A stretch of DNA of 64,000 nt, from NCBI GenBank assembly GCA_963691705.1, contig OY829542.1, positions 44,203,105 through 44,267,104 on the forward strand. The letters are read 5' to 3'. Both the position numbers and the translations under genes were made by a program. The notes beneath the pieces were generated by a model. That model was not told where the DNA came from and made no database searches. It saw only the letters and a program-made list of their open reading frames with translations. Source of the stretch: Viola odorata (Eukaryota; Streptophyta; Magnoliopsida; Malpighiales; Violaceae). Below, piece by piece: positions 41,462 to 61,582 of this stretch (positions are counted from its first letter, which is position 1; every line of letters starts with the position of its first letter).

Positions 41462-43239
41462 CTCTAAGGGGGTGGTCCTCGCCGCTGCTACACCTGCAAG
41501 GCGCCAGAGGGGGTCCCCGGCGCAGATACTTCGACGCTCAAGTCAGTATAAGTGATGGATAAAAAAGGATAGGCAAGAGTAGAGAGAGAGAGTAGAGAGA
41601 GAGAGTGAGTCCCCTTTTTCTACCTAAGGGGGGGTATTTATAGAAGATTTGGTAGGGAGCGTTATTCTTGGGATGTTAACGCTTATGGCGTACCGGGTGT
41701 GGAAATAAGTGCCATATCGTGTTGGATGCCCCCACCCCACCCGCTGACGTCGACCACCCCCCGGTAGTAGGACTAGCGGGAGGCCAGGTAGGCCCTATAA
41801 TAGCTGAAGATGGCGTACCCCCTGTCAGGACTAAAATGCCCTGGGGGTATATTAATAGTTATCATAAGCCCAACCAAAAATGAGCCAGAGTGTTTACCAA
41901 GGGCTCCATTCTCGGTATCTAGATGAGTGTTATCTCCTCCATGCTATGGTAGACTTATAAAGATCTTCGAGTTTCTCTGACTCTTTTGATGTCCACGTCA
42001 TAGATTCTTATTTTCGATATTTGCCGAAAATGTTGTATCTTTGAACTGGTTGTATTAGGTAGATGATAGCAGAGCAGGTAACATGAGCCAATAGCTTGTG
42101 ATAACTGTTGGACACGGAGGAGATGACGACCAAATTGATAAGGTGACGACAAGCGATGCTTCTGCCGATAGCTTGCTTCTCTATAAGCAGGTTCTGGCGA
42201 CCATTCATGAAAATAGGGTATGTGCAGTATAGCAGAGACGACCGACATATACTGTTACATGTGTTGCTAGGAACACGAAGAATGCTACTAGCTTGACGGT
42301 GCGGGCACAAGTGATAATTCCAGGATGTTGCTCGACTGACAATGTTTCTGAAATAGGATATGTTCTGGGAAATATTCCCGATATAGGGACCCATTCGTTG
42401 TCAAGTGACCATCTCTTGATTTGTACTAAAGAATGAGTTGGTGATGCCGCTAGCTTGTTAGAAGTCGTCAAGTGTCATTTCTGTTAGGTAGTATTAGCTT
42501 GTCGGGGTCGTTAACTGTGACTAGAAGATTGTAAGCTTGTCAGGGCCGTTAAAGTGTTGTTGACGTTTGCAGATTGTTGCTTCGTTAATTTGGTTGGCTT
42601 GCAAGAAAACACCAGGACATAGCCACAACCAAAGTAGAGAATGAAGATTTATACTTTATGCAGAGAGAAAGAAATATGGCGATGATGGACCAGAGGTAAC
42701 GAGAAGAGAAGCCTCAAGACTCAGAGCCTAACCGAAAACGGTTGACGGGATCGATAATAACTACGCGCCCACAGCCCAACTGAAAATGGTCTCGGTATGT
42801 ACTGCCGATAACATGTTGTAATTCGACACTATTCTCGAATGATTGCCGTATTTCCTTCTCATATAAGGATCTGATTATTTCCAGGTTGCTTCACACACAC
42901 TTTGTTTGTACAACCTGCAGAGAGACAAAGAAAAGCGAATACAATAACGTAATGATCAGGAATCATTTTACTTACAGGAGGTTTCTGGATAGAGACTGTG
43001 AGATAATCCTCAGATGGCAAGCATTGTATAATGCCTTCCGGAAAATAAGCAGGGCCACTCAATTACAGTAGTGCAAAAAGATGGATGATGGGGACTTCTG
43101 TATACTAATAATTCGGTCTGATTCCCTTGATGAAGCCAGGTAGCATTTTGCATCCATAAGCAAGTAACGACCATTGGAACCACAAGCAAAACTCGCCAAG
43201 TAATATAGCGACTAGAACAACCTTGAAAATTATAAGCCA
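41456..43239 (-). mobile_element. Remnant of an older Tat-lineage element: LTR piece and 3' region
   Basis: 41456-41864 is the right part of an LTR like that at 43240-43755: both contain the (C/A)AAGGCGCC(G/A)GAGGG...TCCGGCG and CT(T/C)AAGT(C/T)AG block and end GTTATCA (41858-41864). The following sequence, from TAAGCCCAACC at 41865 to about 42100, parallels 43756-44000. The element is cut on the left by the deleted gypsy element and on the right by the next Tat LTR at 43240. No coding sequence is recognised in 42100-43239. Confidence 0.65.
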
Positions 43240-43755
43240 TGATATGATCTGGACTGTTGGGGAAGAGGAGTCGGGATTATGGCTGTCTGAAATCACTGTA
43301 ACAGCAGTCCGTCGTACCAACAAGGCGCCGGAGGGGGGACTCCGGCGTAGACACTCCGATGCTTAAGTTAGCATGGCTGTGAAATTTGGCAGAGATTTTT
43401 GTAGAGAAATTGCTCTTACTTTCTATCTAGAAATGAGGGGTATTTATATCCAAAGGAAGAAGGGTCGTTACCCCCAGGGCTGGGCATTATAAAGGGGAGA
43501 TATCGCCCAGGATGACGTCAGCATACGGATATCGCTGTCGAGCTATCGCCACGGGTGTTGTCGGGGTATACTGGGATGGGATGACGCCGTGTGGGTCCCC
43601 CCCTCCCCCCCCCCCACTGATGTCGACCATCCCAGGATCCTTGGCCTATCGAGGGTGGCAGCCGGGTGCCGTCGCCAGTTAAGGTCTACTGGAATCTGGT
43701 TTTGACTGGAGGTAAGAAGACGAATGTACCCTTGGTGTTTCCTTAATTGTTATCA
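43240..43755 (-). repeat. 3' LTR of the Tat element
   Basis: 516 bp, from TGATATG at 43240 to GTTATCA at 43755. On the minus strand a TATAAATACC box (about 43440-43449) is followed by CTTAAGCATCGGAGTG and a TCCGGCG-rich inverted block, the same order as in the solo LTR at 50242-50799. Its left end is set by comparison with that solo LTR and is less sure than its right end. Confidence 0.75.
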
Positions 43756-44426
43756 TAAGCTCAACTGAAAATGAGCCCGAGTGTTTACCAAGGGTTGCCT
43801 CTCCTGTCCTCTGGAGGAATCGCTATTTCCTTTGTGTAGCGTCAGCTTCAGGAAAATCACCGAGTTTCTGACTCCTTTGTAAATTCCATTGTACTGGATA
43901 TACGATAGCAAAACGGGTAAATGGGACCGACCACTAGTGATAACGCAGGTCCTCTCCGAAGCTTTAGCTACCGTTCTGAAGGCGATATGCCCATGTTTTT
44001 CCTGCACATTCTCAAAATGTGGTTTTGTCATGTTAGCAAAAATAACATGTAATGACAAGTACTAGTTACCCTTAGGGGTTTTCACCCACTCATGTCAGGA
44101 TGTTTTTGGTGTCGTCGTTCCCTTCAAACTCGCGAGGTTTGGCCTTACGGTAAGCCGCTTACAGTTTGTGCGGTCCCACGTCATAGCTACCAGGAATATT
44201 GACGCGGTTTTACGCTGCTCGGAGCTACCTGTAATATCGACGTGGTTTTACGCTGTAGGCTGCCTACAAATTGTAAGGTCTTACGTTCTCTGATACGCAT
44301 TTTATTCAAGCATCTTGGGTATCCACCAGGAGTTCCGCGTTAGCCTTTCCCTCCAACTGTTTTGGGATAACGGGACGACTCATTTTTCGAGGTGCACGCC
44401 TTTGTGCACAGCTATTGCCTCGGATC
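43756..44426. other. 3' end region of the Tat element
   Basis: About 670 bp between the LTR and the first antisense gene. It starts TAAGCTCAACTGAAAATGAG, a phrase repeated in variants at 41865 and about 45050. GACG(C/T)GGTTTTACGCTG appears twice near 44200-44260. No supported gene. Confidence 0.6.
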
Positions 44427-44433
44427 TATAAAT
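44427..44433 (+). promoter_or_regulatory. TATA box upstream of the first antisense gene
   Basis: CTATAAATG lies 58 bp before the ATG at 44491, a normal plant promoter distance, on the strand opposite to gag-pol. Confidence 0.5.
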
Positions 44434-44490
44434 GTGATCGTTTTTTGCAGTTTCTTCACATTCTCTCTGCCCCTCATTTGTCATTTTCTC

Positions 44491-44880
44491 ATGGAAGATC
44501 TCACTAGAAACTTTCTGATCTCCAAGGCCCTGACCCTCAAAAATCTTACTGAGGGTGACATCAATTTTCTAGAGAACATGATTATGAAATCCGGCGAGGA
44601 TATCCTGGAGCTCCGGGGAATGATGACCCCCATTCTGGCCAGGATCGGGGCTGCTACCATGGAGGACTTTAATCCTATCGGGAATGTCTCCAAGCTGGCC
44701 GTTGTCGCCTGTCGTATCGAGGTAACCATCGCCATGCTTCAGCAGAGGAAGGATCTTCTGAACTGCTGCTTGAAGAGCATGAGAGGCACCTCTTCGGAGC
44801 TGACTTCCATGGAAGAGGCCTTGAGGGATGTCCCCACCCTGCTGGTGGATGACGACAATGATGCCGGGTCCCGGGCTTGA
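44491..44880 (+). CDS. Antisense accessory ORF A1, unknown function
   Basis: 129 codons, ATG at 44491, TGA at 44878-44880. The protein starts MEDLTRNFLISKAL and is mostly helical in composition. It has a LENMIMKSGEDILELRGMM segment, a central IARIGAATMEDF-like region and an acidic end (LLVDDDNDAG). No family is recognised and no signal peptide or membrane segment is seen. It is intact, unlike its downstream neighbours, and codon use looks like a real gene (few rare runs, G/C at many third positions). It is antisense to the Tat gag-pol transcript. Confidence 0.6.
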   Translation: MEDLTRNFLISKALTLKNLTEGDINFLENMIMKSGEDILELRGMMTPILARIGAATMEDFNPIGNVSKLAVVACRIEVTIAMLQQRKDLLNCCLKSMRGTSSELTSMEEALRDVPTLLVDDDNDAGSRA

Positions 44881-45406
44881 ATGTTTGTTGCTCCGCTCTC
44901 TCTTTTGTTTTCCCTTTGTATATTTTATGTATGCGGACTTATATTCAGGCCGTTAGGCCGTAATGAAACTCCTTTCCGTTATTGGTCTTGTGATCTTTCT
45001 CCCCTTTTTAGGGCGTTAGCCCTGGCTTCGATTTGAGAGCTATGGCTAAGCCCAATTGAAAATGAGTCTGACACTGGTCAGAATTTTGCAGTATTTATTC
45101 TTCTTTATCTGCCAGGTGGCGATGGTTGCTTAGACAAACTGTTCTACTAATCACGCGCCGTCTCTTCAGTAATAACTGATTGGGCGGTTTTTCTGTACTT
45201 CTTGATCATTGAGAAATTTCAACGGGCGTGATCCAAGGATTTTGAATTTGCCATTATGGTTGATCTTCTCAAGACGCATTAACTTATTCTTCTCTCCCTT
45301 GAGAAATTTGAAGAGTCTCACCATTTTATCTATTTATGGGGAGTTCTTTTCCTTTTTCCTGTTCATCTTCTTCATATTTTTCTGCTGCTACTGATCTTCA
45401 TCTCTC

Positions 45407-45823
45407 ATGGCTGATTCATATGAGGTCGCCGATGAGCGAGAATCTCGCCCAACCCCTCCGACGACACCAGATTCTGACAATCCTTCTTCGCAACCATGCC
45501 GGAAGAGGCGATTGCCAGGCCGTGGAGGTTGGAAGAGATCGAAGAAGAGAGCACATTCTGAAACCACTGATTGGTTTTCTTCATTTTCAGCACCTCCGAT
45601 CTGTAAGGGCAAAAACTTGTTTCCTCCTGCTGATTGGTTTGAAGAGGAGATTCCTTTAGGCGATACCATCGCCAAGGCGGCATTTTCAGCTATAAAGGAG
45701 GAATCCAAGCCACTGACGCTGAGCCCGGGGTGAAAAGCTGACAAATCCCCTCCTTTCGCTGATGAGGAGCTTCCATCCTCCGATGGGGAATATTGTTACT
45801 GGTCCTCTTATGGGTCTGACTAG
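45407..45823 (+). pseudogene. Antisense accessory ORF A2, basic then acidic, one in-frame TGA
   Basis: ATG at 45407. A first part of 108 codons has a strongly basic stretch (CRKRRLPGRGGWKRSKKRAH) that would act as a nuclear-localisation signal, then PPADWFEEEIPLGDTIAKAA. A TGA at 45731-45733 is followed in the same frame by 29 more codons of coherent acidic sequence (SPPFADEELPSSDGEYCYW) to TAG at 45821. The frame probably was a single 138-codon gene with one recent nonsense change; a true end at 45733 is the alternative. No known family. Confidence 0.55.
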
Positions 45824-46015
45824 GATTGATTCTGTCCTTGGTAACCCCTTGTAGATGTCATATGGCTTTTGTTTTTAAATGAAATGATGCTTTACTTTTT
45901 TAGTTTTGCATGCTCGGGCGTTAGCTCCTCTTTGGATGCCTATCGCTGAGGAACTAATTGTTGCTTCAATGTAACCATTTGCAACTGATTGTCAGTAACC
46001 ACCCACCCCAGAAGA

Positions 46016-46022
46016 TATAAAT
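46016..46022 (+). promoter_or_regulatory. TATA box upstream of antisense gene A3
   Basis: GATATAAATGC about 290 bp before the ATG at 46308. The 5' leader between is pyrimidine-rich and may contain a small intron (AAG/GTACTTCG at about 46261 to CTCAG near 46284). Confidence 0.45.
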
Positions 46023-46307
46023 GCGTGGACATATCCTTCTGAAGTTTTCACACGTGTCACTTTTACTCTGGGACGTGTCCTGCTTTTACAGGCTGTTCAA
46101 TTTTTGAACTTAGCCTTTAAAAGGGGGCAACTGCTCTCTTTTAATACTCTTTGCTTGCACTTCGAAATTTTCTCCCTTTCTCTCTCTAGATTCTTACTTC
46201 GAAGGAGGTCACGAGCACCGTTCGCCGGCGCCGACAGTTTTGTCCACCGCCTTCTGTTCAAGGTACTTCGCTTCTTTCTCCTCAGATTTTCTCTTTGCTG
46301 AGTCACT

Positions 46308-48305
46308 ATGAGTACCTCTAGAATACCCAAGGATTCTCAGTGGCCTCTGGCTACGAATAGGTCTTTGAGAAGTCTCCAGAATTTCCGACGGCCCATAGAT
46401 TTATAAATTGAGAGAACACCTAGTGTTTTTGTTGATCAAGCGGTTTTGGAGGCAGAACTGGAGGAAAATGGTATCTTTTTCCCTCCTAGTTACTCCGCTA
46501 GAATTCCTGACGCCGGTTATCGGCTTCATGACCCTCTATCGGGGGGCGATAGGATGGTATATTTTAGCATGTTCCTTTATGGCTTTCGCTTTCCCATCCA
46601 TGAAGCAGTGAAAAATTTATTGGTTCGATGTGACATTAACCTGACTCAGATTACGCCTCCTTCTTGGTATGGGATTCATGTCTTCATTCGCATCTGCGAG
46701 TTGCGGGGTATCCTTGTCCCGTCTGTCAATTTATTCCGCAAGTTTTTTAGTTTTTGGTGCCGCAACTGTGTGGTAGATATCGCCCCAAGATGGAATGACG
46801 CATTGGTGCAGTTATTCTGGAAGAAATTCCAGGGCTTTGAAGAGACTATTGTCGATTAGAAAATCGGTTTTTTCATTCTGAATTTGCCCTTCCGCCCCTA
46901 GCCCAAGGGCTTCAATCAGTGTTTTAACGACTCCCTCTGGACAAACCCGTCAACAGTATCCAAAGAAGAGCTTCAACAAACGCACGTGCTGCTGGAGCTG
47001 AAATCATCTTATCATATTCGAGAGTTTGCCTTGCACAGGCTTATAGAGAAGTGTATTATAAGTAAGTTTCTTTCCCTTCGTTATCGCTTTGGCTTAATCA
47101 TTGCTCTGATATTCCTTGCTGGCAGGTGACACTGGAGATCAACCGTCAAGTGATAAGGACGTCCCTCTAGACGTGAGGCCACTTTAAACATTGCCACCAT
47201 CTCCTCCGCCCAAGAGTTCCAGCCGCCCTGCCGCTTCAAAAAGAAAGAGATTCAAGACGGTTGCCAAGCGCGGTATCTCCAACCGTGCTTCCCATTTCCT
47301 CGAGAATTGGCTACCCGTTCGGAAAGGAGTTGCTCCGAATCATCCTAAAACTGAAGTACCCGAAAGCAGCAGCGAGGACATGGATACCGACTCTGGACTT
47401 CGTCATGCTTCCGCGACTCAGCGGAAGAAGCTGAGAATGGGAAATAGCAATCCGGTTACTGAGGTTGCCTTGAAGAAGGCGAATGAAGCTCCCACTACTG
47501 GGATTGACGCCCTTGATGGAGCAAGTACCTCCAAAACGGTGACAGCAGCTACGGCGTCAACCAACATTCCTCTTGATGCTTTTGAGGCTCCGCCAGAGGT
47601 CAACCTTCCTCCTCTGACAGTCGCTCCTAACTCTCCTATCTCCTCCTGCATCCCTGATGTCGCTGCACCGAATCGTGAACCTACCACTCTCCTGACCCTC
47701 TGCCAAATGGCCTTCCGCCATTAGTCTCCACCTCTATTTCAGGAGTCGGTAGTTCCGCTGGAAATCGTTCTCCTCCCTTTACCGCCAACCTGTCTTCTCA
47801 AAGTCCTCAAGGAGCCACTTCCTATCGCTTGGATCTGTCTACCTTTGGCACCAACGGGCTTCGTGCCCTGGGTATATCAGACTCGTTATCGCAGAGCAAG
47901 CCGGTGGGTTCGATAGTAGGTGCGATATTTGGCTCTCCTGAAGATAGGGAGAAGATGTCAGAGCTTCCTCTGGAGGTTCATTGCAAACACGCTTTAAATG
48001 ACGTGTTGGCTAGCTTTCGCATGCTGAATTACTTTCTCGATATCCATGGTGACAAGGCTCGAGGTTCTCCCTCTGAGGTGGTGGAGCTGACGCAACTCCA
48101 AAGCGATACCCAAGCAGAGCTTGACGACTGCCATGCTGAATTGGTCAGAGAGAAGTCGATAGCTGATTACACCTTCGAGAGGTTGAAGGATATAAACGTC
48201 GGGGTGACAAAGGAGTCCTTCCGTGATGGGAGCGAGGCAGCGCTTGAGAGTGTTTTATTTTTATTTTCCTTCCAACATTGGTTTCATTTGACTTATAATA
48301 ACTGA
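46308..48305 (+). pseudogene. Antisense gene A3: PF04195-like 'gypsy-type transposon' protein, decayed
   Basis: ATG at 46308. The domain at about 46446-46859 carries FYGFRFPIHEAVKNLL-like, SWYGIHVFIRICELRGILV and FRKFFSFWC blocks, matching the pattern I know as PF04195. In-frame stops are at 46404 (TAA), 46857 (TAG) and about 46899. An intron lies at 47062-47125. The next exon has a basic stretch (SKRKRFKTVAKRG) and Pro/Ser/Thr-rich sequence. A frameshift near 47725 leads to 47829-48305, a helical C-terminal part (QLQSDTQAELDDCHAELVRE). It probably produced a nuclear protein of around 600 residues; its role in the element is not known. Confidence 0.65.
47062..47125 (+). other. Predicted 64-nt intron in A3
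   Basis: Donor ATAA/GTAAGTTTC and acceptor TTGCTGGCAG/GTG. It is placed after the PF04195-like domain, as is the 49530-49598 intron of A4. Confidence 0.6.
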
Positions 48306-48638
48306 TAACGCTTGCATAGTAATGAGTGTCATTCCGCTCTGGATAACTATTAATTTGCTTCTTGGCGTTATCTTTGTTGATTATGTCATCCCGCTTGACC
48401 TCTTTCTGATAAATTAATTCTGCTTTTTCGGAACATTTAATGCTCAGAATCCCCTCATTAATATGAGCGAAGGATCATGATGATTCAGAGACACGTGTCT
48501 GCTCATCAGGACACTAGGGCTAGCATGATTTGATAAGATCAAAGCGTCTTCTCTCCTTTCTAAAGTTATACTCATTGCTTATGCCTGTCACGCGCGTCGC
48601 GACTGTTCCAGCAGTCATTTCTTTTAGCCCCTTAGGGT

Positions 48639-48645
48639 TATAAAA
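48639..48645 (+). promoter_or_regulatory. TATA box upstream of antisense gene A4
   Basis: GTTATAAAACCCC, about 170 bp before the ATG at 48814, followed by a pyrimidine-rich leader. Confidence 0.5.
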
Positions 48646-49529
48646 CCCCTCACTTTATTTCTTTTTCCACTTTCGACAATCTATTTCTCTGCATCTTCTC
48701 AAATCGTCTTGCATTTCTGGTTTTCATCTTCTGGGTATTTCAATTTTCTTCTAAAAAGGTACCTCTTCACTTCCCTTACTGTGTTCTTCATCTTTTTATT
48801 TTCTTTTTCCACCATGGCAAAAAGAAAAACTCGTGCTTCTGGGTCTAAATCAGTTGATGGAGAAAAAATAGAAACCATAGTCAGTGCTATTACTTCTTCA
48901 GCCATTCTTGATAAACATCTGTCTGATCACGGTGCCACCCTCCCTGAGGGTTTTAAGGCCACCGTCGCTCCTGAGTGTTTACGCCTGAATAACGTTCTGA
49001 CCGGTAAGCGCAGAATTATGTATGCCCAGATGTTTCGTTATGGTTTCTGATTTTCGGTTGACCCGTTCATCAAAGAGTTGCTTACTTCTTTGGATCTGAA
49101 CCCCGTTCAACTAGCCCCAAATGCCTACTGTGGCATTTATGCATTTTTAGAACTCTGCAAGTACAAAGGAATTATATCTCCTTCCCTTGCATTACTGAAG
49201 TCTTTGTTCAAGATGTATAACCGTCGGGGTGTGATAGCGATATCACCCCGTTATGATGATGATTCACTCCAGAACTTTACTTGGAAACTCCTTCACCTGG
49301 AGTCTTCCGTTGATAAATGGAAAGAGCAGTTTTTTTGTGGTTGAAACTCCCGAGCTTCCGGAGCCATGGTGGCGGTCTGGTTTCAACCAGAGCGTTAAGG
49401 ACAGGGTTTGGCGCCGGGAGGCTCTTGACGAGATGGAACAGGGCTGGTTTGATAAATTGCTTAGTCTGGAAATCAGCGTTCACACCCGCCTTCTGGCTTG
49501 CGGGACCGATATCAGAACCTGCGTTAGAC

Positions 49530-49598
49530 GTGAGTATCACGTCAATCTTTGATTTTCAATATTAGTACTAACGCTGACGCTGTCTTGTGCTTTTGCAG
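49530..49598 (+). other. Predicted 69-nt intron in A4
   Basis: Donor AGAC/GTGAGTATC and acceptor GTGCTTTTGCAG/CAAC. In both A3 and A4 the intron falls after the PF04195-like domain and before the basic motif. Confidence 0.65.
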
Positions 49599-50241
49599 CA
49601 ACTGATCCGAATTATGTTCCCGAGAGCTTTAGGAGGCGCCGAAAGAGACTTCGAGACAGAGAAGCGGCCGTGGCTGTCGATATCGCCACCACTTCTGTTA
49701 CCACTTCGATTCCTCTCCAAACATCTTCAGCCGCAGTTGACGAGGAAACCGACACCATCCCGGTTGGTATTCCTGTCATATCAATCGCTGCACCTCCTCC
49801 TTAGTCAGTTACTCGTCGGGCTTCCGTGAAAGGGAAGAAGAAAAGGAAGACAAGGAGCGTTGCTACCCTCCATCCACTAATTCCACCTTCTTCAGACATG
49901 GCCGGCTCCTCGGAGGCACCTGTCGCTGAGGCGGTAACAACTTCTGCTCCCCTATACTTTTTGCGCTGCCTTTTCAATGCCTTTCTGCTTTTTCTTTAGT
50001 TTTTCATTGTTTTTCTTCGTAGGTTACCTCTCGTGCCTCTACTCCTGCACCTTCGCGAGGTAATATGGACTTGAGGTGTATTCTTTCTCAACCAAGGAAG
50101 AAGAAGAGGTCCAACGAGGCAGGTCCAAGCCCGTCCTCGATTCAGGTGGATGTCGGGGTGGGGCCTCCAGCCGTCTTTATCTCTTTCGCACCTCCCACAG
50201 GTCAGACTGGTAGCATTTTTGAGGGAGTGGCCATGCCTGGG

Positions 50242-50799
50242 TGATAACAATCGGCCTATCGGCAAGGGCATTTTTGTCTTACACCTTGAGAAGAGGGTAC
50301 AACCACTATTCCTACCGCAAAGACAGCATCGAGGCTATCGCCTCCCTCTATGTGACCAACGTTGGGATGGTCGACATCAGCGGGGGGGTCTCACACTCAG
50401 CATTGTTATGACAGACGGCGCTATCCCATCCCAGTCCAAGACAAGCTTCCCGTTTGGGGGTGTAGGCATTGCCTCACATAGGTAACACCTACCCCGATAG
50501 CTCACTCCACCAACGGGGAATTCTAATCCCCTCCAACGGTAGCATTAGCCCCCTATGATCCAGATCCCTCAGAAATGCTCCATTTTTATCTATAAGTACT
50601 TCCCCCACAAAGGAGGAAGGTAAGCACGAATTACTGGCCCAAGCTCTGCCAAATTCACTACACATACTGACTTAAGCATCGGAGTGTTTCCGCCGGAGAC
50701 CCCCTCCGGCGTATTGCAGGTACTGCGGACCGCCGTGGGCACTGATCTGAGAGGACCAATTTCTACATATATCCTTCGGCAGAAGACAAATTCTTATCA
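50242..50799 (+). mobile_element. Solo LTR of a Tat-lineage element inside A4
   Basis: 558 bp with 6-bp inverted termini (TGATAA...TTATCA) and a perfect 5-bp TSD, CTGGG, at 50237-50241 and 50800-50804. It contains a TATA-like TCTATAAGTAC near 50590-50600 and the CTTAAGCATCGGAGTG plus CCGGAG...CTCCGGCG block shared with the LTR at 43240-43755, but in the opposite orientation. Without the insert and one TSD copy the flanking A4 frame is continuous, which supports the limits. Confidence 0.9.
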
Positions 50800-51683
50800 C
50801 TGGGCTTTTTGAGAATTCCCCACCTTTATTCGGCTCGGAAGTACCTCACTATTCCTCTAACATGGTCCATACTGATGATCTGTCGGGTTTCACCGGCTGT
50901 CAGCCCCAAGGATCATTCATGCCTCAGGGAGGTTCCGCTTCCAACCAACCTCATGAAGCACCCGGGCACCAGGGGGGTTCCGCTTCCAACCAGCCTCCTT
51001 CTCCCGCCGCAGTGGTCTTTGTTCCTTCCGAAGCTTCCTTGCTTAAGCGCTTCGGGGAGGGGACAATAGTGTCCAATCTTATGGCCGATGTAAGCTCATA
51101 TAACGCCACTAGGCCCATCACCCATCAAGTGGATATGACTACGCTTCGTAGTTCAGGGATTGCGGCCATGGGGGGTGATAACTCGGTCGTTACTGCTTCG
51201 TTCTTGGCCGCACACATGCTAACGTCCCCTGAGGAACGAAACGCCTTAGCAGCTGTGGGAGACGAAGAGCAAGCCGACTTGCTACGCTCTAAACTTTTCA
51301 CTGGGTTCCTCGAATTTCATCACTACAGTGAGCGCGTGTCGCGACAGGTGGCTGACCTTGCCGCTTCCGCAGCCAAGCTTTCGCAGGAGCAAGAGAAAAA
51401 ATAGCGGCTATTGGAAGAGCGAGACAGATATATGAAGGCTCTGGAGGCAGCCAAAGAGGAGCCAAAGGAGGCGAAGGAACAGCTGGCTAACTCTAACGCT
51501 GCTCTGGCGGTTGAACAGGCAAAGGTTATCGCTCTCGAGGGAGAGAAAACAGCCTTAGCGAACGAGAAAGCAGCTTTGCTAGAAGAGAAAACAGCGTTTG
51601 AGGCAGAAACAACAATCAAGTGTCACTGGTACATTGAAAAGACTGCTTCTATCATGGCTAACAGCTTCGTGGAGATTCACGGG

Positions 51684-52391
51684 TGATACGATCCTAGTTG
51701 CGTAGGATACGTAACGAGTAATTCCCAATCTAGTTATAGGCTTGGATTTCGATGCGGAAGAATGATAACTCAATACGACTGTTTAACCCTGCTAATATCC
51801 GTGTATTAGCCCACCTAAACTTATCGAATGAGGTTCTTGAAATGATCCCTAACCTGCTAATATCCTATATTAGCCAAACTAGAGCTACGATTCAATGGAG
51901 TGGATGTTCAGGTTTTACTTGCTATCCTAATCGAGTATCCGGACTCAATGAGGGACAAGGTTTGCGAAGAACAATTGAGAAAACTCCCTGGTTTTTATTT
52001 CAAGATAACGTAATCAAAATAATGAAGAAGGTGGCTCCTTTAAAAAGGAGAAACCCTAAATCCTTATAATGGGAAACCTTCCCTTAATAGAACTCCTAAT
52101 TAATTAATTAAAATAAATTCAGACTAATTTAATTAATTAATGAAAATAGCTAAATAAATAATGGAAGGTCCGAATTTGCAGTCACTAGAGTCATTGACGC
52201 TAAGGCATAGAGTCATTAGCGTCAACGACGCCAACCTCTGTCTAAGAAATCCCTTCAAAACAGTCACTAGAGTAATTGTCGCTAAGGTTAGAGTCAATGA
52301 CGCTAACCGCTGTTTCTTCAAGATATGCTTGTCCATATACTTATTGCAAGCATGCGATGCACCATGCATGATACATCCTGGGATCGTATCA
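51684..52391 (-). repeat. 3' LTR of the non-autonomous element
   Basis: 708 bp with unusually long 11-bp inverted termini, TGATACGATCC at the left and GGATCGTATCA at the right. On the minus strand it follows the purine tract GAAGAGGGAGGGAA (52392-52405). Confidence 0.92.
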
Positions 52392-52887
52392 TTCCCTCCC
52401 TCTTCGGAAAGATTCGCCCTCGAATCTTGTTCAATGCTCTTTGCCCAAGAAAGTTCTACAACTGCAATTCTATGCTCCATGAACACTCGCCATCTCTTGC
52501 GCTTCCTTGGTTGCAAATGGTGTAATCCGCAACACACACAATTTGTGGGCACTTAAAACATCTCACAAGATGTGGGACTTCCTCGCATTCTAATTCTCTG
52601 TAGATGAACTGTGATGACTTCTTTTGCAACTTCTTATTCCTCGAGCGAATCGTTGGTCCGTTAGGTGGCAAGAGTATTCCGTCTGATGCACTAGGATTCG
52701 CATCATTCTCACCCCCTTGGCAAGGATTCGTCCTCGAATCCGGACTTAAACCTGCAGGACAATACCTTAAGTTAGTAACATCAAAATAATCACAAATGGA
52801 ACCATACCAACCCTTTAAGTTCAACTTGGTTGCGATATCATTGAATATGATAACACGTTGTGTAGGACCATTGCCCCAAGTGGCCAT
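52392..52887 (-). pseudogene. Integrase C-terminus and polyprotein tail remnant
   Basis: From about 52887 on the minus strand the frame reads KLNLKGWYGSICDYFDV-like sequence, then DSRTNPCQGGENDANPSASD and RSRNKKLQ. This is the tail that follows integrase in the related element at 1-4614. The frame shifts near 52460, after which an overlapping frame (52552-52133) keeps SRANLSEEGGNDTIPG, running into the LTR. Confidence 0.75.
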
Positions 52888-53028
52888 GTCTACTGGTACT
52901 TGGGTTAGAGACCATTTCTGGTGTAAGCACTACCAAACCCAAGTATGTATCTTGAAGGACTCACGCCTCCTTCCATGGTTCCTCATAAATGTCATCGTGG
53001 CATGCAAGCGCACACCATAGCGCTTGGC

Positions 53029-54267
53029 TTATCCATGGGATATCCACATCACCTCGATTTTCCTACTGCCACCTATGCTAAGTAACACTTTCAAAGGCAA
53101 CAATATCAAACCGAATGATATCATATGAACCAAACGACATATGAGTTTCAACAAATCAAAAATAGTGATATGTGTAGACAGGTAGTAAGACAATAAAATA
53201 AAAGGAAGACATTCTTCCCATGCAAACATATACTTACAAACCAAGACATGCCATACAGAACCAAACGTTCTTTTATCCATGCGGTTAGAAACTCCCAACT
53301 CTGGTTGACAAGGTGTCCAATTTAGCCTCTTTGTGCTCGACTTCCTCCACAATTTTCTCAATGAGTCGCTAAGTGACTCCTCCCTACAATTACCAACAAC
53401 ACTCCAAGGGACAACATGTGAAAGTATAACATCCTTAAAGAACATGCTAGTAATAGTTATTCCATGATGACGCATCAACCTATTGTGATAGGACCAACAC
53501 ACAGTCAAATTGTGTAACGATCTACACACCCAAAACAAGCGCTTGTCATGATCTCCTTTATACATACAAAACATAGATTTTGTGTCAAATAAATAATCAT
53601 TATAGACTTCACAAAAATTAGAATCATTAGCATAAGGATTAAACTTAAGAGTAATCTCAAGCAATTTTCCACTAAGTGACTTTTTATCAATACTACCAAT
53701 AAGACTCAAAGGAACATCATGTGAAGACATATCATACCTATAAATTAAATCAGTAATGTCAGTTAAATCACAACAGCTCATCAAACAACCATTAAACACA
53801 TCATGCTCATCAAAATTTCGCAAAAGATCATGCGACCTATATAAGCAATTGTGTCTGAAAAGAGCTCCTTCAAGCTCTGTAGACTTAAGCACAAATATAT
53901 CATGAATATCACACATAGGAGAATGGTTATAAAACTTAAATACATGTGAAAATTCACTTAATTTTGCATTAGAGAAAGAGAGACACACAATACCTTGGCG
54001 GTGAGCGTTTACCACACCGTTTACCGAATTGTCTTGTTGTGCAATCTTTCGAGTTGGCGATTGGAGAAGGGTTTTCTTCTTTTGAATTGAACTCTTATCT
54101 ACCTGAACTAGAGAAGAATAATAAATAGGACAAGAAACAAATTCATTAGGGTTAGAAGAATCACGGTGCAATGGCAAAAAATTCAGCTCTTGGTGGCTTG
54201 CGCCAAAACAGTTTTTGTACACACAAAGTGTGTTTCTCACTTCTCTCCCTATGGAATAATCACTCAA
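53029..54267 (-). CDS. 412-codon ORF of unknown function in the non-autonomous element
   Basis: Open for 412 codons with no internal stop, starting MSDYSIGREVRNTLC. Most of it matches no family I recognise; it is rich in Leu, Ser, His and Cys and has repeats of the phrase SL(S)xxLxKLxxK type (SLSGKLLEITLKF, SLSDSLRKLWRK). The last ~100 residues look like degraded integrase: SNRMDKRTFGSVWHVLV and WEECLPFI resemble the end of the catalytic core and the YGFN...LLPL segment. So a new or unalignable sequence has been joined to an integrase remnant. It may be a real accessory protein or an open stretch preserved by chance. Confidence 0.5.
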   Translation of the reverse strand: MSDYSIGREVRNTLCVYKNCFGASHQELNFLPLHRDSSNPNEFVSCPIYYSSLVQVDKSSIQKKKTLLQSPTRKIAQQDNSVNGVVNAHRQGIVCLSFSNAKLSEFSHVFKFYNHSPMCDIHDIFVLKSTELEGALFRHNCLYRSHDLLRNFDEHDVFNGCLMSCCDLTDITDLIYRYDMSSHDVPLSLIGSIDKKSLSGKLLEITLKFNPYANDSNFCEVYNDYLFDTKSMFCMYKGDHDKRLFWVCRSLHNLTVCWSYHNRLMRHHGITITSMFFKDVILSHVVPWSVVGNCREESLSDSLRKLWRKSSTKRLNWTPCQPELGVSNRMDKRTFGSVWHVLVCKYMFAWEECLPFILLSYYLSTHITIFDLLKLICRLVHMISFGLILLPLKVLLSIGGSRKIEVMWISHG

Positions 54268-54304
54268 TTTCTTTTCTTTTTCCTCTCCTTTTGATCTCTC
54301 AATG

Positions 54305-54450
54305 CCAACTAACGCATGCTCACTCTTTTCATGCGGGCTGTTTTCCTCACTATCTCTTTTCCCATGCTCACTCTTTTCATGGGGGTTGTTTTATTCATTA
54401 TCCCTCTTCCCATGCTCACTCTTTTCATGGGGGCTATTTTCCTCATTATT
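54305..54450 (-). repeat. Short tandem repeats in the gag downstream linker
   Basis: Three to four copies of a 57-bp-type unit; on the minus strand each encodes an SPHEKSEHGK-like peptide. The same peptide occurs once in the linkers of the elements at 1-4614 and 39299-41455, so amplification happened in this lineage. Confidence 0.8.
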
Positions 54451-54463
54451 TCTCCCTTTATTT

Positions 54464-55450
54464 TCACTCAACTCTTCTTTTTTTCTCAATTTTCCTAGTG
54501 ATCTCATACTCGGCATAAGACTTCACTAGTACTTTCAACTGCTCGAGAGAATCCTTAAGGTTATCAATCTCGCCCGACGTCACCTCACCATTGTCCTCAA
54601 TGATCACTCTATATTTTGGACATTGGCTAGAAGTGTGCCCTCGGCCTGTGCATGTATGGCATAAAATATCTGGCGTTCGCACACGAGTTGAAGAAGGAAC
54701 AGCTCTCGCTAAACATGTGTTGGGGCCTTCCTTGCCCTTGACGGTTGTAGAAGACTCGCCACTGCTCGGACTCTCCTTAGGTGACTTTGAAATTGCACCC
54801 ATGATTCCATAATCATAAGGAAGCACTGGTGGGATCGGTCTCCCCTTCTTTTCTTGCTTCGTCCAAGTCGGCTCATTCCATACCGACAGCTTGCTTGACA
54901 CAACACTAGGGTAAGAAGAAGAATATTTCATCTCATCATAATACTCACCAACACTTCTACTCCCTTGAGGTAAAACTTGCGGTCGTTGGCGAAACTCTCC
55001 TTGAAAGTGGGCGGGTAGGAATCGTTGTCTCATTAGTATCCTCATATCTTCCCAAGTTGAAACCGGACCGGCTAGAACTCTCTCCCTTACTTTATTCAAT
55101 TGGTCCCACCAATGAGTGGCGTACCCACTGAATTCAAGCGATGCCAACTTCACCATCTTGTCTTTGGAATAATTGTGGCAGTGGAAAATGTAGTGAACCC
55201 TCCTCTCCCATTCTAAGTATTCATCCGGGCATTCCGTTCCTTCAAAAGGCGGAAATTTCATCTTTGTTTTTCCTAGATTGGCATCATCTCTGTTCTCAAA
55301 TCTAGGTCGCCTTTCATCAATTCTGTCCCGCCTCTCATAGGCATACCCCTCATAACTTCGCCTCTCGGACCATCGCGTGTAAGACATCTTGTGATTCCTG
55401 AAATTCACAACACTAAAGAAACAAGCGTAAAATGTCCTAAAAACTAGCAC
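54464..55450 (-). CDS. gag: Gag of the non-autonomous element
   Basis: 328 codons, open. After an Arg-rich start (MSYTRWSERRSYEG within the frame; likely start at the Met near 55388) the capsid region is visible: MKFPPFEGTECPDEYLEWE, then ATHWWDQL and TWEDMRILMRQRFLP. A zinc knuckle CHTCTGRGHTSSQC is near 54630-54670, consistent with RNA binding. An acidic segment follows. Since the frame is open while pol is missing, the element may package its own RNA and borrow the enzymes. Confidence 0.85.
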   Translation of the reverse strand: MLVFRTFYACFFSVVNFRNHKMSYTRWSERRSYEGYAYERRDRIDERRPRFENRDDANLGKTKMKFPPFEGTECPDEYLEWERRVHYIFHCHNYSKDKMVKLASLEFSGYATHWWDQLNKVRERVLAGPVSTWEDMRILMRQRFLPAHFQGEFRQRPQVLPQGSRSVGEYYDEMKYSSSYPSVVSSKLSVWNEPTWTKQEKKGRPIPPVLPYDYGIMGAISKSPKESPSSGESSTTVKGKEGPNTCLARAVPSSTRVRTPDILCHTCTGRGHTSSQCPKYRVIIEDNGEVTSGEIDNLKDSLEQLKVLVKSYAEYEITRKIEKKRRVE

Positions 55451-56205
55451 TCACTCACGTGTTTAATCTCTCTAATAAGCTCACAAATCACTCACAAATT
55501 TCTGCAATTGTTCAACGCAAAGTTAGTGACTCAAGAGTTTCAAGAAAGCTTCCAAGAATACTCGCAAAGACAACTAGCTTCAAAACAATTTGGATGTAAG
55601 GTACTCGCGTAATTGCAACGATCAATCAATTAAACAAGTACGCTACTGGAGTAGAGTTCAATATATATAGGAATAAATAAAAGGCTCAAGTAGACTCGAA
55701 CAACTCAAATAATTCGCAAATTCGCGAATGAACTGTGCGCACGATCTTAAAAACCACAACTTGAACCTTCAATATCTTTCAATTCTGACCACCAAATCCA
55801 ATGATTCCTTTTGCAATAGCTTCACAATACTCTGTAGTATTTTGTATTTTCTTTTTCGTTCTGTTTTGATTTTTTTTTTTTACTCTTTCAACGAAACTAA
55901 GCAACAATTAAAAGAAAGACACTTTGGGTTTTTGTAACTCTTTTTCTTGACACTTTGGGGACGAATTTTTTTTTATTTTATTTATTTTGTATTTAAAAGA
56001 TACTACAAATCGCACAACGATTTGCACACACAAAGACGCAAATAAGATCTAGAAATCCTAGGTCGACTTGACACATAAATAACTAACACACGTGACGCAA
56101 GGAGATTGATTTAGATCGGGTAGAAGAAGAATCAATTTCAACAATTGAAAACAATTAAAAACAGTAAAGGATAGATGGATAGATACCAAACCGTAGAACG
56201 CCTTT

Positions 56206-56217
56206 GCTCCGCTACCA
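56206..56217 (-). promoter_or_regulatory. Primer-binding site TGGTAGCGGAGC of the non-autonomous element
   Basis: Two bases (GT) after the 5' LTR end on the minus strand. It is identical over 12 bases to the copia primer-binding site at 6960-6971. Confidence 0.78.
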
Positions 56218-56219
56218 AC

Positions 56220-56928
56220 TGATACGATCCTAGTTGTGTAGGATACGTAACGAGTAATTCCCGATCTAGTTCTAGGCTTGGATTTCGATGCGGAAGAATG
56301 ATAACTCAATACGACTGTTTAACCCTGCTAATATCCGTGTATTAGCCAACCTAAACTTATCGAATGAGGTTCTGCAAATGATCCCTAACCCTGCTAATAT
56401 CCTGTATTAGCCAAACTAGAGCTACGATTCAATGGAGTGGATGTTCGGGTTTTACTTGCTATCCTAATCGAGTATCTGGACTCAGTGAGGGACAAGGTTC
56501 GCGAAGAACAATTGAGAAAACTCTCTGGTTTTTATTTCAAGATAACGTAATCAAAATAATGAAGAAGGTGGCTCCTTTAAAAAGGAGAAACCCTAAATCC
56601 TTACAATGGGAAACCTTCCCTTAATAGAACTCCTAATTAATTAATTAAAATAAATTCAGACTAATTTAATTAATTAATGAAAATAGCTAAATAAATAATT
56701 GAAGGTCCGAATTTGCAGTCACTAGAGTCGTTGACGCTAAGGCATTGAGTCATTAGTGTCAACGACGCCAACCTCTGTCTAAGAAAGCCCTTCAAAATAG
56801 TCACTAGAGTCATTGACGCTAAGGTTAGAGTCAATGACGCTAACCGCTGTTTCTTCAAGATATGCTTGTCCATATGCTTATTGCAAGCATGCGATGCACC
56901 ATGCATGATACATCCTGGGATCGTAACA
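56220..56928 (-). repeat. 5' LTR of the non-autonomous element
   Basis: 709 bp, starting TGATACGATCC on the left and ending GGATCGTAACA on the right, where one base differs from the expected GTATCA. Matches 51684-52391 with about 24 differences, including one single-base indel. Confidence 0.92.
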
Positions 56929-57063
56929 ACGGGGAAGAATTTTATGACGGAGACGCTGTTTCTAACGTCTTTTATAAGAATTCCTCCAATCTGAATGACG
57001 AGGGCTTCCGCTTGGCCAGATCGAAAGGCTACCCAGAGAAAGGGATTGTTGAAGACCAGCAGT

Positions 57064-57699
57064 AGGCAGGGTATTATCGCCCCCCTCTTTCTTGTGAGGA
57101 TTGAGTGTTCCCCCTTTTTTGTTCGCCTTTGTATATTTTTGTGTCCCTTCGTGGGTATTTGAACAATCACACTTCTATGATATCAGCTTTTGTTGGTGCC
57201 ATTTTCCTTTCCCGTACTTCTTTTTGTTCGAATTTTTGTAGCATGGCCTTCGCGCCCTTATCACCCTGATCCTGTTAATGGCTTTGTCGTGCTTGACTTA
57301 ACCACCGTCTGGCCCCATCAGGGAGCACATTTCTGAAAGAAGCATTCTTCTATCTTTGATCAAAAGAAATAATGAATAGGGTTTTTAGGCCCTATTCCTT
57401 AAACCGTGTCAACATCAGCGTGGTTGGCTTCACGTCTACTTTGCCGACGAGTCATACAACTCTTTTATCACCTCGAGTGTCGCAATCTCACATAGTAAGA
57501 GATATCCTGCACACTCTCAATTAATGTTTATTAGTAAGAAATAAGCGATAACAGACACGAGTTTCCCGTAGGAGCCGATCCGCCGTCATTCTAGGGTATC
57601 GGTGTCGCTTGTTATCGTTTTCTCAACCAGCTCACTTCACTAGGGATTCCGCATCTGATTACTCGTTGGGATTTCGTGATTTTTCGCATTTCCACAATC
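57064..57699. other. Spacer between A4 and the tandem array
   Basis: Starts after the A4 stop codon; contains a T-rich stretch (TTCCCCCTTTTTTGTTCGCC) that could serve 3' end formation of A4. No supported gene. Confidence 0.5.
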
Positions 57700-58290
57700 A
57701 GCCGGAAAGTGCCTCTTCCTAGTGAGTCGTCTGATCAAGGCAGGCCCTCACAAGGCTAGGATTTTTCACTTTCGGCGTTACCCTCTCATCCTGGAATCGT
57801 GCCTTCCCTTGGCGAGTCGTCTACATCAGCCCGGCCGCAGGGATAGGATTTTCACTTCCATGATGGAGTTATTATCTCCTTAGGGTATGCCTCTCCCTAA
57901 CGAGCCATCTCCACGAGAATGGTTGTCATAAGGACGAGGCTTTTCCACCTTCAGGAATCCTGGGGCGTGCCCTCACTCAGTGAGTCGGTGGATCCAGACC
58001 GACCATTACGAGGATAGGACTTTTCACTCCTAGGGGTGTCGGGGCGTGCCTCATCTTATGTCCCACACGTGGTTACCACAAGGATAGGACTTTTCACTCC
58101 CAACGTTACATATTAGGTGCGCCAGGGCGTGCCCTCACTTAGTGAGCCGTCAGATCAGGACAGGCTGTCACAAGGATAGGACTTTTCACTCCTGACGCTA
58201 AATATTAGGTGTGCCGGGGCGTGCCCTCACTTAGTGAGCCGTCGGATCAGGACAGGCCATCACAAGGATAGGACTTTTCACTCCTGGCAA
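57700..58290 (-). repeat. Tandem array between Tat integrase and the antisense cassette
   Basis: About seven units. The core is GGGCGTGCCCTCACT(T/C)AGTGAGCCGTC...ACAAGGATAGGACTTTTCACTCC. The last two full units (cores at 58127 and 58220) are 93 bp apart and almost identical; the earlier ones diverge and vary in length. TTTTCACT marks each unit (about 57765, 57851, 57940 variant, 58018, 58092, 58184, 58276). Confidence 0.85.
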
Positions 58291-58411: not shown

Positions 58412-59860
58412 TCAAAATCTAGCATGATATAATTTCAAACAAGCGATATTCCAGGAGTTAGGTAAGGGGGTACCGTCGAGTGTCTCCAGATGGTACGCTC
58501 CTCTCCCGACAATACGGGTAACGCAGTACGGCCCTTCCCAGTTTGGACTGAGCTTCCCTCGGCGTTGACCAGTCGCTCGTTGATCCTTGAGTACCAAGTC
58601 TCCTTCTTTTAGAAGTCGTTCTTTGACACACATATTATGATAACGTGTCATCTTTTGTTTATAGTGTGTCATTTTCAGAAGAGCTTCCTCTTGTAATTCG
58701 GGCAGCGCGTCAAGATTTGCACGCAACCTTTCCTCGTTTAGCTCTTCTCTGAAGTAAGCCACTCGTAGGCTCATGGTACCAATTTCCACGGGTGTGACGG
58801 CCTCAGTGCCGAAAGCCAGTGCGAATGGGGTCTCTCCTGTGCTGGTTTTCGTGGTCATGCGGTATACCCACATCACATACGATAGTTCATCTGCCCACTT
58901 CTTTTTAGATCCCTCTAGGTTCTTCTTAACACCATTAAGGATGGCTCGGTTTGTCACATCAACCTGACCATTGGTCTGTGGATGAGCCACGGAAGAGAAT
59001 CTTTGCTCGATTTCGAATTCCACACATTGGTCTCTAAAGAATTGGCTGGTGAATTGCATTCCGTTATTGCTGACTAGCACGCGGGGAACTCCGAAACGCA
59101 TGATAACTTGGTGTTTGAAGAAATGCCAGATTTTTTCTGTTGTGATGTTAGTGACCGCCTCAGCTTCCGTCCATTTGGTGAAGTAGTCTACCGCCACGAC
59201 CACAAATTTTAACTGAGATCTTGCCCTTGGAAACGGTCCGAGGATGTCAATTCCCCATTTCGCGAAAGGACAGGGAGCGATAAGATCATAAATTTTTGTG
59301 GTGGGTTGTCAAGGAATCTTGGCGAATTCCTGAAACTTTTGGCAGGTTCGCACGTAATCATGGCAGTCTCTCCGGATAGTGGGCCAATAGAACCCTGATC
59401 TGAAGACCTGTGTAGCCAAGGTTCCACCGGATGCATGCATGCCGCAAATTCCTTCGTGGATTTCGTGGAGGGTATGAAGGCCCTCCTGTTCCATTATGCA
59501 TCTGGTAGCCGGATAGGAAAAACACCTCCGCATCAATTCTCCGTAGAAGTACGTGCACCGTGCCGCTTGCTTAAGCACTTTTTTCTTCTCAGCGTTATCC
59601 GCTGGTAGCTCGTCATGTTTCAAGTATCTTATGACGAGAATTCTCCAGTCATTGTCACTTTCTTCCACATAAAGCGTCGCTTGCTCTTCCATGAAGGAAG
59701 GCACGGGTAGCTCCCGGTAGTACACCCCTTTCAGTATGGACACTTCTGGATTTGCTGCGAGTTTGGCGAGGTTATCTGCTTCAGCGTTATCCTCTCGAGG
59801 AATGTGCTCGAAGCTAACCTGTATGCCACATTTCTTTATTTCTATCAACTCGCGTTTCAC
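58412..59860 (-). pseudogene. Tat integrase, broken
   Basis: The minus-strand frame 59860-59309 carries a zinc-binding region (HEIHEGICGMHASGG, then YVRTCQKFQEF); the second Cys of the CxxC pair appears replaced by Phe. After a stop and frameshift near 59300, 59203-58412 carries the core: DYFTKWTEAEAVTNITTEK, VSNNGMQFTSQF (first residue of the second Asp motif changed to Asn) and NGQVDVTN near where Glu is expected. The C-terminal part has NWEGPYCVTR, a GPY motif. The lost catalytic residues show that it is inactive. Confidence 0.85.
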
Positions 59861-59872
59861 CTTAGCAAGGTA

Positions 59873-61520
59873 TTATACCATGATGGGTTCTCTACCTTGG
59901 GAGTGTCCCAGTACTTGATCAATTATCAACTTGGAGTCTCCACAGACTTTTAGCCGCAGATCTCCCAACCTTCCTGAGTCATGAATTCCTTTTATGGAGG
60001 CGCTTTTCCCCATCCTGAGTCCGGCTAATAACGCTTCATATTCTGCGGCGTTGTTGGACAACAGATGTAAAATCCAGATGGCGAACCGCATATGGATACC
60101 GTGAGGCCCACTCATGAAGATCCCGGCCCCGGCAAGCTCTTGATTTTTAGCGCCATCTACGTGGATGACCCACATGTCGGTGTAGGTTTCACGGAAGGGG
60201 AGATCCAACTCTTCTTTTTCCTTTTCAGTCAACTCCGTCATTGGATCTGGAGTAAAGGTGCATTCCGCGATAAAGTCTGCTAGGATCTGAGCCTTTATGG
60301 ACGGTCGGGATCTGTAGTGCAAACCATATTATTCAAGTTCGATAGCCCAAATCAGCATTCTCCCCGAGGATTCAGGCTTCCGGAATATCCTTTTTAGAGG
60401 TTGATCCGTAAGCACAATGACGGTGTGAGCTTGAAAATACTGATCCATTTTCCGCGTAGCTTGCACCAATGTGAACGCTATCTTCTCAATTCGAGTGTAT
60501 CTCAGCTCAGCATCTTTCAGGATGTGACTTACAAAGTATATAGGTCGGTGTGTGTGGTTATCATCTCGCACAAGGACCGCACTGACCACTTCGTCAGCAA
60601 CCCCAAGGTATAGGTACAGGATTTCGCCAGGCTCTGGTCTTGTCAACACCAAGTCAGACGATAAATAGGCCTTCAGGCTTGCAAATGCTTCCTCGTATTC
60701 TGCTGTCCATCCAAAGACAGCTTTCTTGCGTATAACCTTGAAGAAGGGGAGGCACATTTCACCTTGCTTAGAGATGAACCATCGCAGTGAGATAACACGC
60801 CCTATTAGCTTCTGGATCTCTTTTACAGTCTGAGGGGATATCATGTCTTGGATAGCTTTGACTTTTGACGGGTTAGGTTGAATGCCCTTTTGGCTGACCA
60901 CGTAACCCAAGAATTTGCCCGTTTGAAAGGCAAACATGCACTTTCGAGGGTTCAGCGTCATCTGATATCGCCTCATTACTTCAAAGACTTCCGCCAGGTC
61001 AGACAAGTGTTCTTTGAAGCTTCGGCTTCTAATCAGTATGTCATCGACATATGCCTCTACGTTTCGCCCGATCTGCTTCTCAAAGACTTGATTCGCCATT
61101 TTCTGGAAGGTGGCTCCAGTATTTTTCAACCCAAAAGGCATCGCCGTGTAGCAATAAGTGGCCTTGGGAGTGATGAACGCAGTTTTCTCTTCATCTTTCT
61201 TGGCCATGGGGATTTGATGATACCCCAAGTTGGCATCTAGCGAGCTCAAATATGCGTACCCGAGAGCCTGATCAACTAGCTGATCGATCCGAGGGAGTGG
61301 GTAACAATCGTTGGGGCAAGCATCATTCAGATCTGTGAAATCAATGCACATGCGCCACTCTCCGCTGGGCTTGGGAACCAAAACAGGGATAGCCAACCAG
61401 GTGGGATATTGCACTTCTCGAATAAAGCCAGCGCCAAGAAGTTTAGCAACTTCCCTCTCGACAGCCGTTGCTTTTTCAGCAGAGAAAGTACGTCATTTCT
61501 GCTGAACTGGTCTTGCATCT
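59873..61520 (-). pseudogene. Tat reverse transcriptase, RNase H and archaeal-type RNase H, broken
   Basis: RT on the minus strand: WLAIPVLVPKPSGEWRMCID near 61400-61345, MPFGLKNTGATFQ near 61140 and EAYVDDILIRS near 61050-61018, so the YVDD box is intact. RNase H follows with RPIYFVSHILKDAELRYT near 60550-60500 and ends at a stop near 60330. The second RNase H at 60322-59873 has VIHVDGAKNQELAGAGI and NNAAEYEALLAGL. Position 61327-61590 has a frame change upstream of RT. These residues are characteristic of the Tat lineage. Confidence 0.9.
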
Positions 61521-61582
61521 GGGTTGACATTGAGCCGATGTTCCGCCACCTCTCGCGAGATGCCTGGCATGACAGATGGTTT

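Follow-up and report, generated by a model that had tools for sequence, protein, structure and literature searches.

In the clade of Tat long terminal repeat (LTR) retrotransposons, the Retand elements are the described systems closest to the one treated here. A 2025 survey reports for them a long region between pol and the 3' LTR, an antisense open reading frame (ORF) with the PF04195 domain (TRP28, Transposase_28), often tandem repeats adjacent to pol, and a target site duplication (TSD) of 5 bp (PMC11963269), and a second, archaeal-type RNase H placed between RNase H and integrase is a mark of Ogre/Retand within the Tat clade (PMC6317226). For Grande of maize and teosinte one antisense gene, gene23, is described, which lies within a long 3' internal region and is reported to be driven by a promoter of its own and to encode a nuclear protein (PMC7264820, PMC11963269), and Retand-2 of Silene latifolia has more than one additional ORF, ORF4 being antisense and containing PF04195 (PMC7264820; ORF3/4 are named in PMC11728184). 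Published work has yet to settle what the antisense genes of plant Retand elements are for (PMC7264820, PMC11963269). When analysing a stretch of 64,000 nucleotides from Viola odorata (G000:C6:44203105-44267104, referred to as the window) a complete Tat/Retand-type LTR retrotransposon was identified on the minus strand, sharing the traits listed for Retand and harbouring four plus-strand genes (genes 1-4) between the minus-strand integrase and the minus-strand 3' LTR.

With two later insertions left out, the region between pol and the 3' LTR is ~8.84 kb, beyond the surveyed Retand range of 2,933-6,566 bp, and the internal region, by our own sum, is ~14.8 kb compared to at most 12,869 bp, region size being a descriptive figure in the survey and no membership criterion (PMC11963269). 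The element also differs from Retand by its two intron-bearing PF04195 paralogues and two small genes, from Grande by having four genes where one is described (PMC7264820, PMC11963269), and from Retand-2, for which introns, paralogy and promoters are unmentioned in the available parts of the reports (PMC7264820, PMC11728184). A sequence-only reading of the window had called the gene set unusual; this is true of the length and layout of the region relative to the survey but not of the antisense PF04195 ORFs as such, which are the rule in Retand (PMC11963269). Since antisense PF04195 genes are already known there, the four-gene cassette is an unusually elaborate variant, and a set of this complexity was not found in the portions of the literature examined.

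The best explanation of the locus, and one we regard as probable, is a Retand-type element in which the pol-3' LTR region carries four separately promoted antisense protein-coding genes, the products of which would act in trans in the nucleus. The evidence comes from a comparison of copies in the genome (699 Mb in 26 contigs, ten of these 56-86 Mb). Searching it for the gene 3 domain gave 40 scored places among 2,339 first-look candidates; ~10 kb was fetched around the best 20 of the 39 non-window places, and a search with gene 1 scored 40 places among 2,851 candidates. When looking, as had been proposed, for copies with the same order, the order of whatever genes are present was kept in all 20 copies and in the window, and genes 1-4 and integrase were all found in 13 of these 20 best-matching copies. 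None of the 20 copies, which were chosen by their match to gene 3, showed the pattern named beforehand as refuting, in which the plus-strand ORFs are absent or have filled with stops as fast as neutral sequence would.

Pairwise codon comparisons were performed on 16-21 aligned copies, giving omega with bootstrap intervals; including the window (maximum 21) the sets held 18 copies for gene 1, 19 for gene 2, 21 for each gene 3 exon, 20, 20 and 18 for gene 4 exons 1-3, and 16 for integrase. The plus frames of genes 1-4 revealed an excess of third-position differences together with few stops and the spacers neither, which bears out the four genes seen in the single sequence. Mean differences at codon positions 1, 2 and 3 were 0.069, 0.052 and 0.199 for gene 1 and 0.057, 0.051 and 0.133 for integrase, while in the four spacers the codon positions were never more than 0.03 apart, whichever of the six frames was read. 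Omega was 0.17 (0.11-0.24) for gene 1, 0.31 (0.23-0.42) for gene 2, 0.35 (0.27-0.47) and 0.43 (0.37-0.50) for exons 1 and 2 of gene 3, 0.30 (0.24-0.39), 0.55 (0.39-0.78) and 0.51 (0.44-0.59) for exons 1-3 of gene 4, and 0.22 (0.17-0.28) for integrase; spacer pseudo-frames gave 0.47-0.69 over all six frames and 0.50-0.69 for the 12 plus-strand frames. In-frame stops numbered 1-9 per 1000 codons in coding segments versus 24-124 in spacer frames, and 101 of 141 stops are a C>T or G>A change alone away from the commonest codon, as expected of decay after insertion.

To these values can be added the ratio of nonsynonymous to synonymous variants (N/S) in singletons, which mostly represent post-insertion decay, set against that in variants common to at least three copies. 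The ratio dropped in 7 of 8 coding segments including integrase (p 0.042 to 1e-11), from 1.45 to 0.36 in gene 1, 3.46 to 0.46 in gene 2, 2.45 to 1.15 and 2.52 to 0.74 in exons 1 and 2 of gene 3, 1.86 to 0.69 and 2.09 to 1.24 in exons 1 and 3 of gene 4, and 1.39 to 0.40 in integrase. No significant drop was found for gene 4 exon 2 (1.51 to 1.11, p 0.44), and among the spacer controls 11 of 12 frames gave p >= 0.21. Some rows are noisy: in gene 4 exon 3 the window, which contains solo-LTR sequence, and L009, which is cut by an insertion, and in gene 3 exon 2 the window and L012, both with deletions. With these left out omega became 0.48 for gene 4 exon 3 (0.39 when L025 and L027 were removed too) and 0.37 for gene 3 exon 2, the latter with an N/S p of 5e-10. 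The codon-level pattern and the drop in N/S together indicate that the genes were selected as proteins during the activity of the family, with gene 4 exon 2 alone appearing undecided as coding and gene 4 exon 3 the weakest of the remaining segments.

Gene 1 (44491-44880, plus strand) is the smallest gene, a single exon encoding 129 amino acids, constrained about like integrase, intact in the window copy and free of stops and frameshifts in 12 of 18 copies. Gene 2 (45407-45823, plus strand) likewise has one exon, ~139 amino acids with a basic cluster, and in the window copy a premature stop at 45731-45733. The omega values of both are of coding type, in line with the two further small genes proposed earlier. 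The suggested search of each protein against domain profiles identified PF04195 in gene 3 and in gene 4 of copy L026 but gave no Pfam match for genes 1 and 2. Look-ups in a large protein collection, apparently poor in plants, yielded nothing at E <= 0.001 for gene 1 (4 candidates) or for the gene 3 domain (8 candidates), and given this composition such null results are no proof of uniqueness. Profiles of gene 1, of the first exons of genes 3 and 4 and of gene 2 run against solved structures gave 0, 1 and 1 rows at E <= 1 (best E 0.24), scanning of viral contigs with the alignments of gene 1 and of the gene 3/4 first exons revealed no relative, and Rfam at gathering scores showed nothing in window 36000-64000.

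The duplicated PF04195-like genes and the short GT-AG introns in two genes were both recovered when the copies were compared. Gene 3 (46308-48226, plus strand, ~690 codons by the exon lengths in L009) consists of exon 1 (46308-47061), which matches PF04195 at 40.2 bits, a phase 1 intron of 64 bp (47062-47125) with GT and AG each in 20/20 aligned copies, and exon 2 (47126-48226), consisting of a linker with a basic cluster and the C-terminal part. In the window copy in-frame stops are found in both exons, and ~209 bp are deleted from exon 2 near 48160. Gene 4 (48814-57065, plus strand, ~760 codons by the exon lengths in L009 and L016) begins with exon 1 (48814-49529), a diverged PF04195 of which the window piece reaches 20.0 bits, below the cut-off of 26.2, while the same exon in L026 reaches 33.2 bits. 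It is followed by a phase 1 intron of 69 bp (49530-49598; GT 18/20, AG 20/20), exon 2 (49599-49933), a basic linker with an omega inseparable from spacer and few in-frame stops, a phase 0 intron of 89 bp (49934-50022; GT 17/18, AG 18/18), so that splice sites are kept in nearly all copies, and exon 3 (50023-57065), which ends with the stop at 57063-57065. In the window exon 3 lies in the pieces 50023-50241, 50800-51683 and 56929-57065, TSD copies included, whereas it is uninterrupted in copies without the insertions; the window copy of gene 4 also contains stops and frameshifts.

Profile-profile alignment of exon 1 of genes 3 and 4 gave a probability of 99.8 with 34% identity over 213 residues, and both exons end two residues past the end of the alignment and are followed by phase 1 introns; for the C-terminal exons the alignment is weak (probability 38, E 3e-4). 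The simplest reading is that one intron-bearing ancestral gene was duplicated inside the element to give genes 3 and 4, and an identity of ~34% between the paralogues suggests a module old enough for duplication and divergence.

When ranking the upstream alignments by conserved 12-mers, TATA-like words were found before all four genes and not before three as first noted, the one of gene 2 being weak. For gene 1 a TATAAA (44427-44432), 64 bp before the ATG at 44491, falls in the 12-mers that rank second when the upstream 194 bp of 9 copies are aligned, and for gene 2 a weak TATTTAT (45331-45337; ATG 45407) overlaps the top 12-mers of the upstream 260 bp in 18 copies. Gene 3 has a candidate TTTAAAA (46116-46122; ATG 46308) within the top 12-mers, where CCTTTAAAAGGG is invariant in 19 copies, and a second candidate TATAAA (46016-46021), 292 bp before the ATG, where GATATAAA is identical in 19/19. 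For gene 4 the TATAAAA (48639-48645; ATG 48814) is among the top upstream 12-mers in 20 copies. All these words are on the plus strand. AATGAA words are among the most conserved downstream of genes 1 and 2, but not of gene 4. Because a conserved TATA-like word precedes each gene, the sequence points to four separate putative promoters, and the single self-contained transcription unit put forward in the sequence-only reading is not supported.

Clusters of basic residues (at least 5 lysines or arginines in 12 residues) are conserved in gene 2 (19/19), gene 3 exon 2 (21/21) and gene 4 exon 2 (20/20), which suggests that the products of genes 2, 3 and 4 are nuclear proteins, and the survey predicts DNA binding for PF04195 (PMC11963269). 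Between gene 4 and pol a diverged array of ~90-bp repeats (57701-58285, plus strand) was found, tandem repeats next to pol being a known Retand trait (PMC11963269). The array holds two conserved cores, one of them the palindrome CTCACTNAGTGAG, which occurs mismatch-free at least once in all 18 array-bearing copies, the window included. From these features a putative mechanism can be outlined, in which each of genes 1-4 would make its own mRNA and the genes would be carried along passively in the gag-pol RNA; because the introns are no introns on the complementary strand that forms the genomic RNA, they would not be lost on retrotransposition. The encoded proteins would work in trans inside the nucleus: the PF04195 paralogues would serve the element as DNA-binding regulators or as anti-silencing factors, with the repeat array as candidate target, and the two small proteins would be possible partners. 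An ambitious extension, which we put forward tentatively and find doubtful, would turn the element into the plant equivalent of a complex retrovirus, with the cassette as its complete regulatory module in antisense, in which a duplicated nuclear DNA-binding PF04195 pair and two helpers, under their own promoters, recognise the palindrome-bearing array and prevent silencing of the element and its relatives in trans.

Could the locus be ordinary Retand biology, with one functional antisense PF04195 ORF and the other plus-strand ORFs as decaying remnants? Antisense PF04195 ORFs are present in 61 of the 63 clusters surveyed (PMC11963269) and many copies here are broken, yet genes 1 and 2 are not part of the PF04195 genes and their omegas are low (0.17 and 0.31), and both PF04195 exons are constrained (0.35 and 0.30), making this account unlikely. 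The codon-position pattern and the loss of nonsynonymous shared variants demand selection at the protein level, which leaves a very low probability for the idea that TATA-driven antisense transcription acts through double-stranded RNA or interference with gag-pol RNA, the ORFs being irrelevant, even if silencing or reduced retrotransposition can result from antisense transcripts that LTR elements give rise to (PMC12786077, PMC7264820); RNA and protein roles may also coexist. The cassette could further represent a set of host genes or a foreign mobile element that was captured through nested insertion and is just a passenger, as the cassette's own promoters and introns on the opposite strand might suggest, together with the lack of a Pfam match for genes 1 and 2 and of a relative of gene 1 in a collection seemingly poor in plants. 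Capture of this kind may have been the origin, viral or nested-transposon, but misfits as a present role and is as such highly improbable, since selection on gene 1 is as strong as on integrase, PF04195 is typical of the lineage in other plants, and a search for repeats of at least 60 bp found no terminal repeats bounding the cassette.

Several observations weigh against a cassette of four separately promoted, nuclear-acting genes. Seven of the 20 copies lack gene 1, 2, 4 or integrase in the fetched stretch: genes 1 and 2 in L013 and L019, gene 1 and integrase in L017, most of integrase in L018, integrase in L009, the end of gene 4 and integrase in L028, and gene 4 and integrase in L011; and as the copies were chosen by their gene 3 match, the presence of gene 3 in all is not independent evidence. 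One of the 12 spacer frames gave an N/S p of 0.004 (frame 2 of the L009 reference in the gene 1-gene 2 spacer, window 44881-45406), which is chance or an overlooked short coding stretch, and the p for gene 4 exon 3 depends on the rows used, being 0.014 for the full set of 18, 0.082 when the window and L009 are left out, and again 0.014 when L025 and L027 are left out too. Promoter assignment is affected by the two TATA candidates of gene 3, the weak one of gene 2 and the second-ranked one of gene 1. Alignment is weak over the final residues of both PF04195 exons, so that a single shared intron place is less certain. In the profile search of structures PF04195 was without a convincing solved relative, single-sequence predictions were of low confidence (mean predicted local distance difference test, pLDDT, of 55 and 47) and too uncertain for a fold search, and a crude heptad test for coiled coils gave scores within the range of shuffles. 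The proposed link between the proteins and the repeat array is a guess by analogy, and while sequence evolution gives good support to an antisense gene module, the expression and role of the cassette are predictions.

Outside Retand a comparison can be made by description with HBZ of human T-cell leukaemia virus type 1 (HTLV-1) and with VANC of VANDAL. HBZ is spliced, and VANDAL is a DNA transposon. Like the products predicted here, HBZ is a nuclear protein coded antisense to gag-pol (PMC11963269), but it belongs to a vertebrate retrovirus and its antisense promoter is in the 3' LTR (PMC7264820), in contrast to the four putative internal promoters of the Viola element. VANC, an element-coded anti-silencing protein whose targets are often tandem repeats (PMC5735166), offers a possible analogy, to which the present locus contributes a repeat array with a conserved palindrome. 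The available text on antisense genes of such elements gave no account of introns or duplication, and in that of the survey the terms intron and splicing have 0 occurrences each (PMC11963269). The survey counts ORFs of at least 600 bp, plus shorter ones with TRP28 (PMC11963269), and as small and spliced antisense genes would be missed by a search for uninterrupted ORFs of at least 600 bp, such modules may be commoner than it shows. The family is represented by many copies in a single genome, its four genes can be studied separately and selection on them can be measured, and the intron common to both paralogues provides a simple test: antisense introns can persist only where the gag-pol strand serves as template for new copies.

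The element is bounded by a 3' LTR of 516 bp (43240-43755, minus strand) with TG..CA ends and by the matching 5' LTR just right of the window edge (L029:376-902), both flanked by the 5-bp TSD AGCCA. The sequence TGGTGCTTTCATTGAGAG lies just inside the 5' LTR as a candidate primer binding site. Integrase (PF00665) is at 58412-59203 on the minus strand, and the remaining gag-pol (integrase zinc finger, archaeal-type RNase H, RNase H, reverse transcriptase and gag, in pieces) at 59309-63413 on the same strand, with reverse transcriptase and RNase H at 60332-61414. Two PF13456 pieces lie between this RNase H and integrase, one at 59876-60322 (21.3 bits, slightly below the cut-off of 21.6; E 2.7e-4; profile 2-80) and one at 59312-59860 (19.0 bits; E 1.4e-3; profile 92-123), followed by the integrase zinc finger. 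This position of the archaeal-type RNase H agrees with the Tat lineage named in the sequence-only reading, and the antisense Transposase_28 ORFs between pol and the 3' LTR (gene 3, and gene 4 exon 1 of L026) point to Retand (PMC6317226, PMC11963269). The assignment by domain order and antisense PF04195 thus points to a large Retand-type Tat element.

The two LTRs differ by a Kimura two-parameter distance of 0.041 (16 transitions and 4 transversions over 503 ungapped sites, gaps besides), compared to 0.053 in L010 and 0.073 in L026. Assuming 1.3e-8 substitutions per site and year, an age of ~1.6 million years would follow for the window copy. LTR-internal junction sequences of further family members were found at window 41839-41903 and at L029:2691-2739, and with such junctions beside it the element probably sits among or inside older relatives.

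Gene 1 falls into two subtypes, assigned by us when comparing the 18 copies, with 26% third-position difference between and 13-15% within them, while integrase ignores the split (0.14 between, 0.12-0.14 within). Inter-copy distances correlate for adjacent segments (r 0.56 for gene 2 and the next spacer), as against r 0.06 for the distant pair gene 1 and integrase, with gene 2 and integrase (r 0.39) as an exception. Two old subtypes not tracking integrase would be a sign of recombination between element genomes, and the mixing of segments is likely due to recombination between co-packaged genomes.

In gene 4 exon 3 of the window copy a related element has left a solo LTR (50242-50799, plus strand; TSD CTGGG), absent in L009, L010 and L026, which is in opposite orientation and has TGATAAC..TTATCA ends as in the family's own LTR. 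Further on lies a nested LTR element of 5.2 kb (51684-56928, minus strand; TSD ACGGG) with LTRs at 51684-52391 and 56220-56928 that differ by 0.033, a gag fragment at 54464-55450 (minus strand) and a 48-bp tandem repeat at 54315-54454. Elsewhere in the genome, L032 (C2:13565000-13573200), left of L025, contains three LTR-length matches ~2.87 kb apart, as after unequal recombination, and L037 (C3:12819800-12821800) holds the L010 5' LTR with a duplicated end (matches 394-624 and 628-1162).

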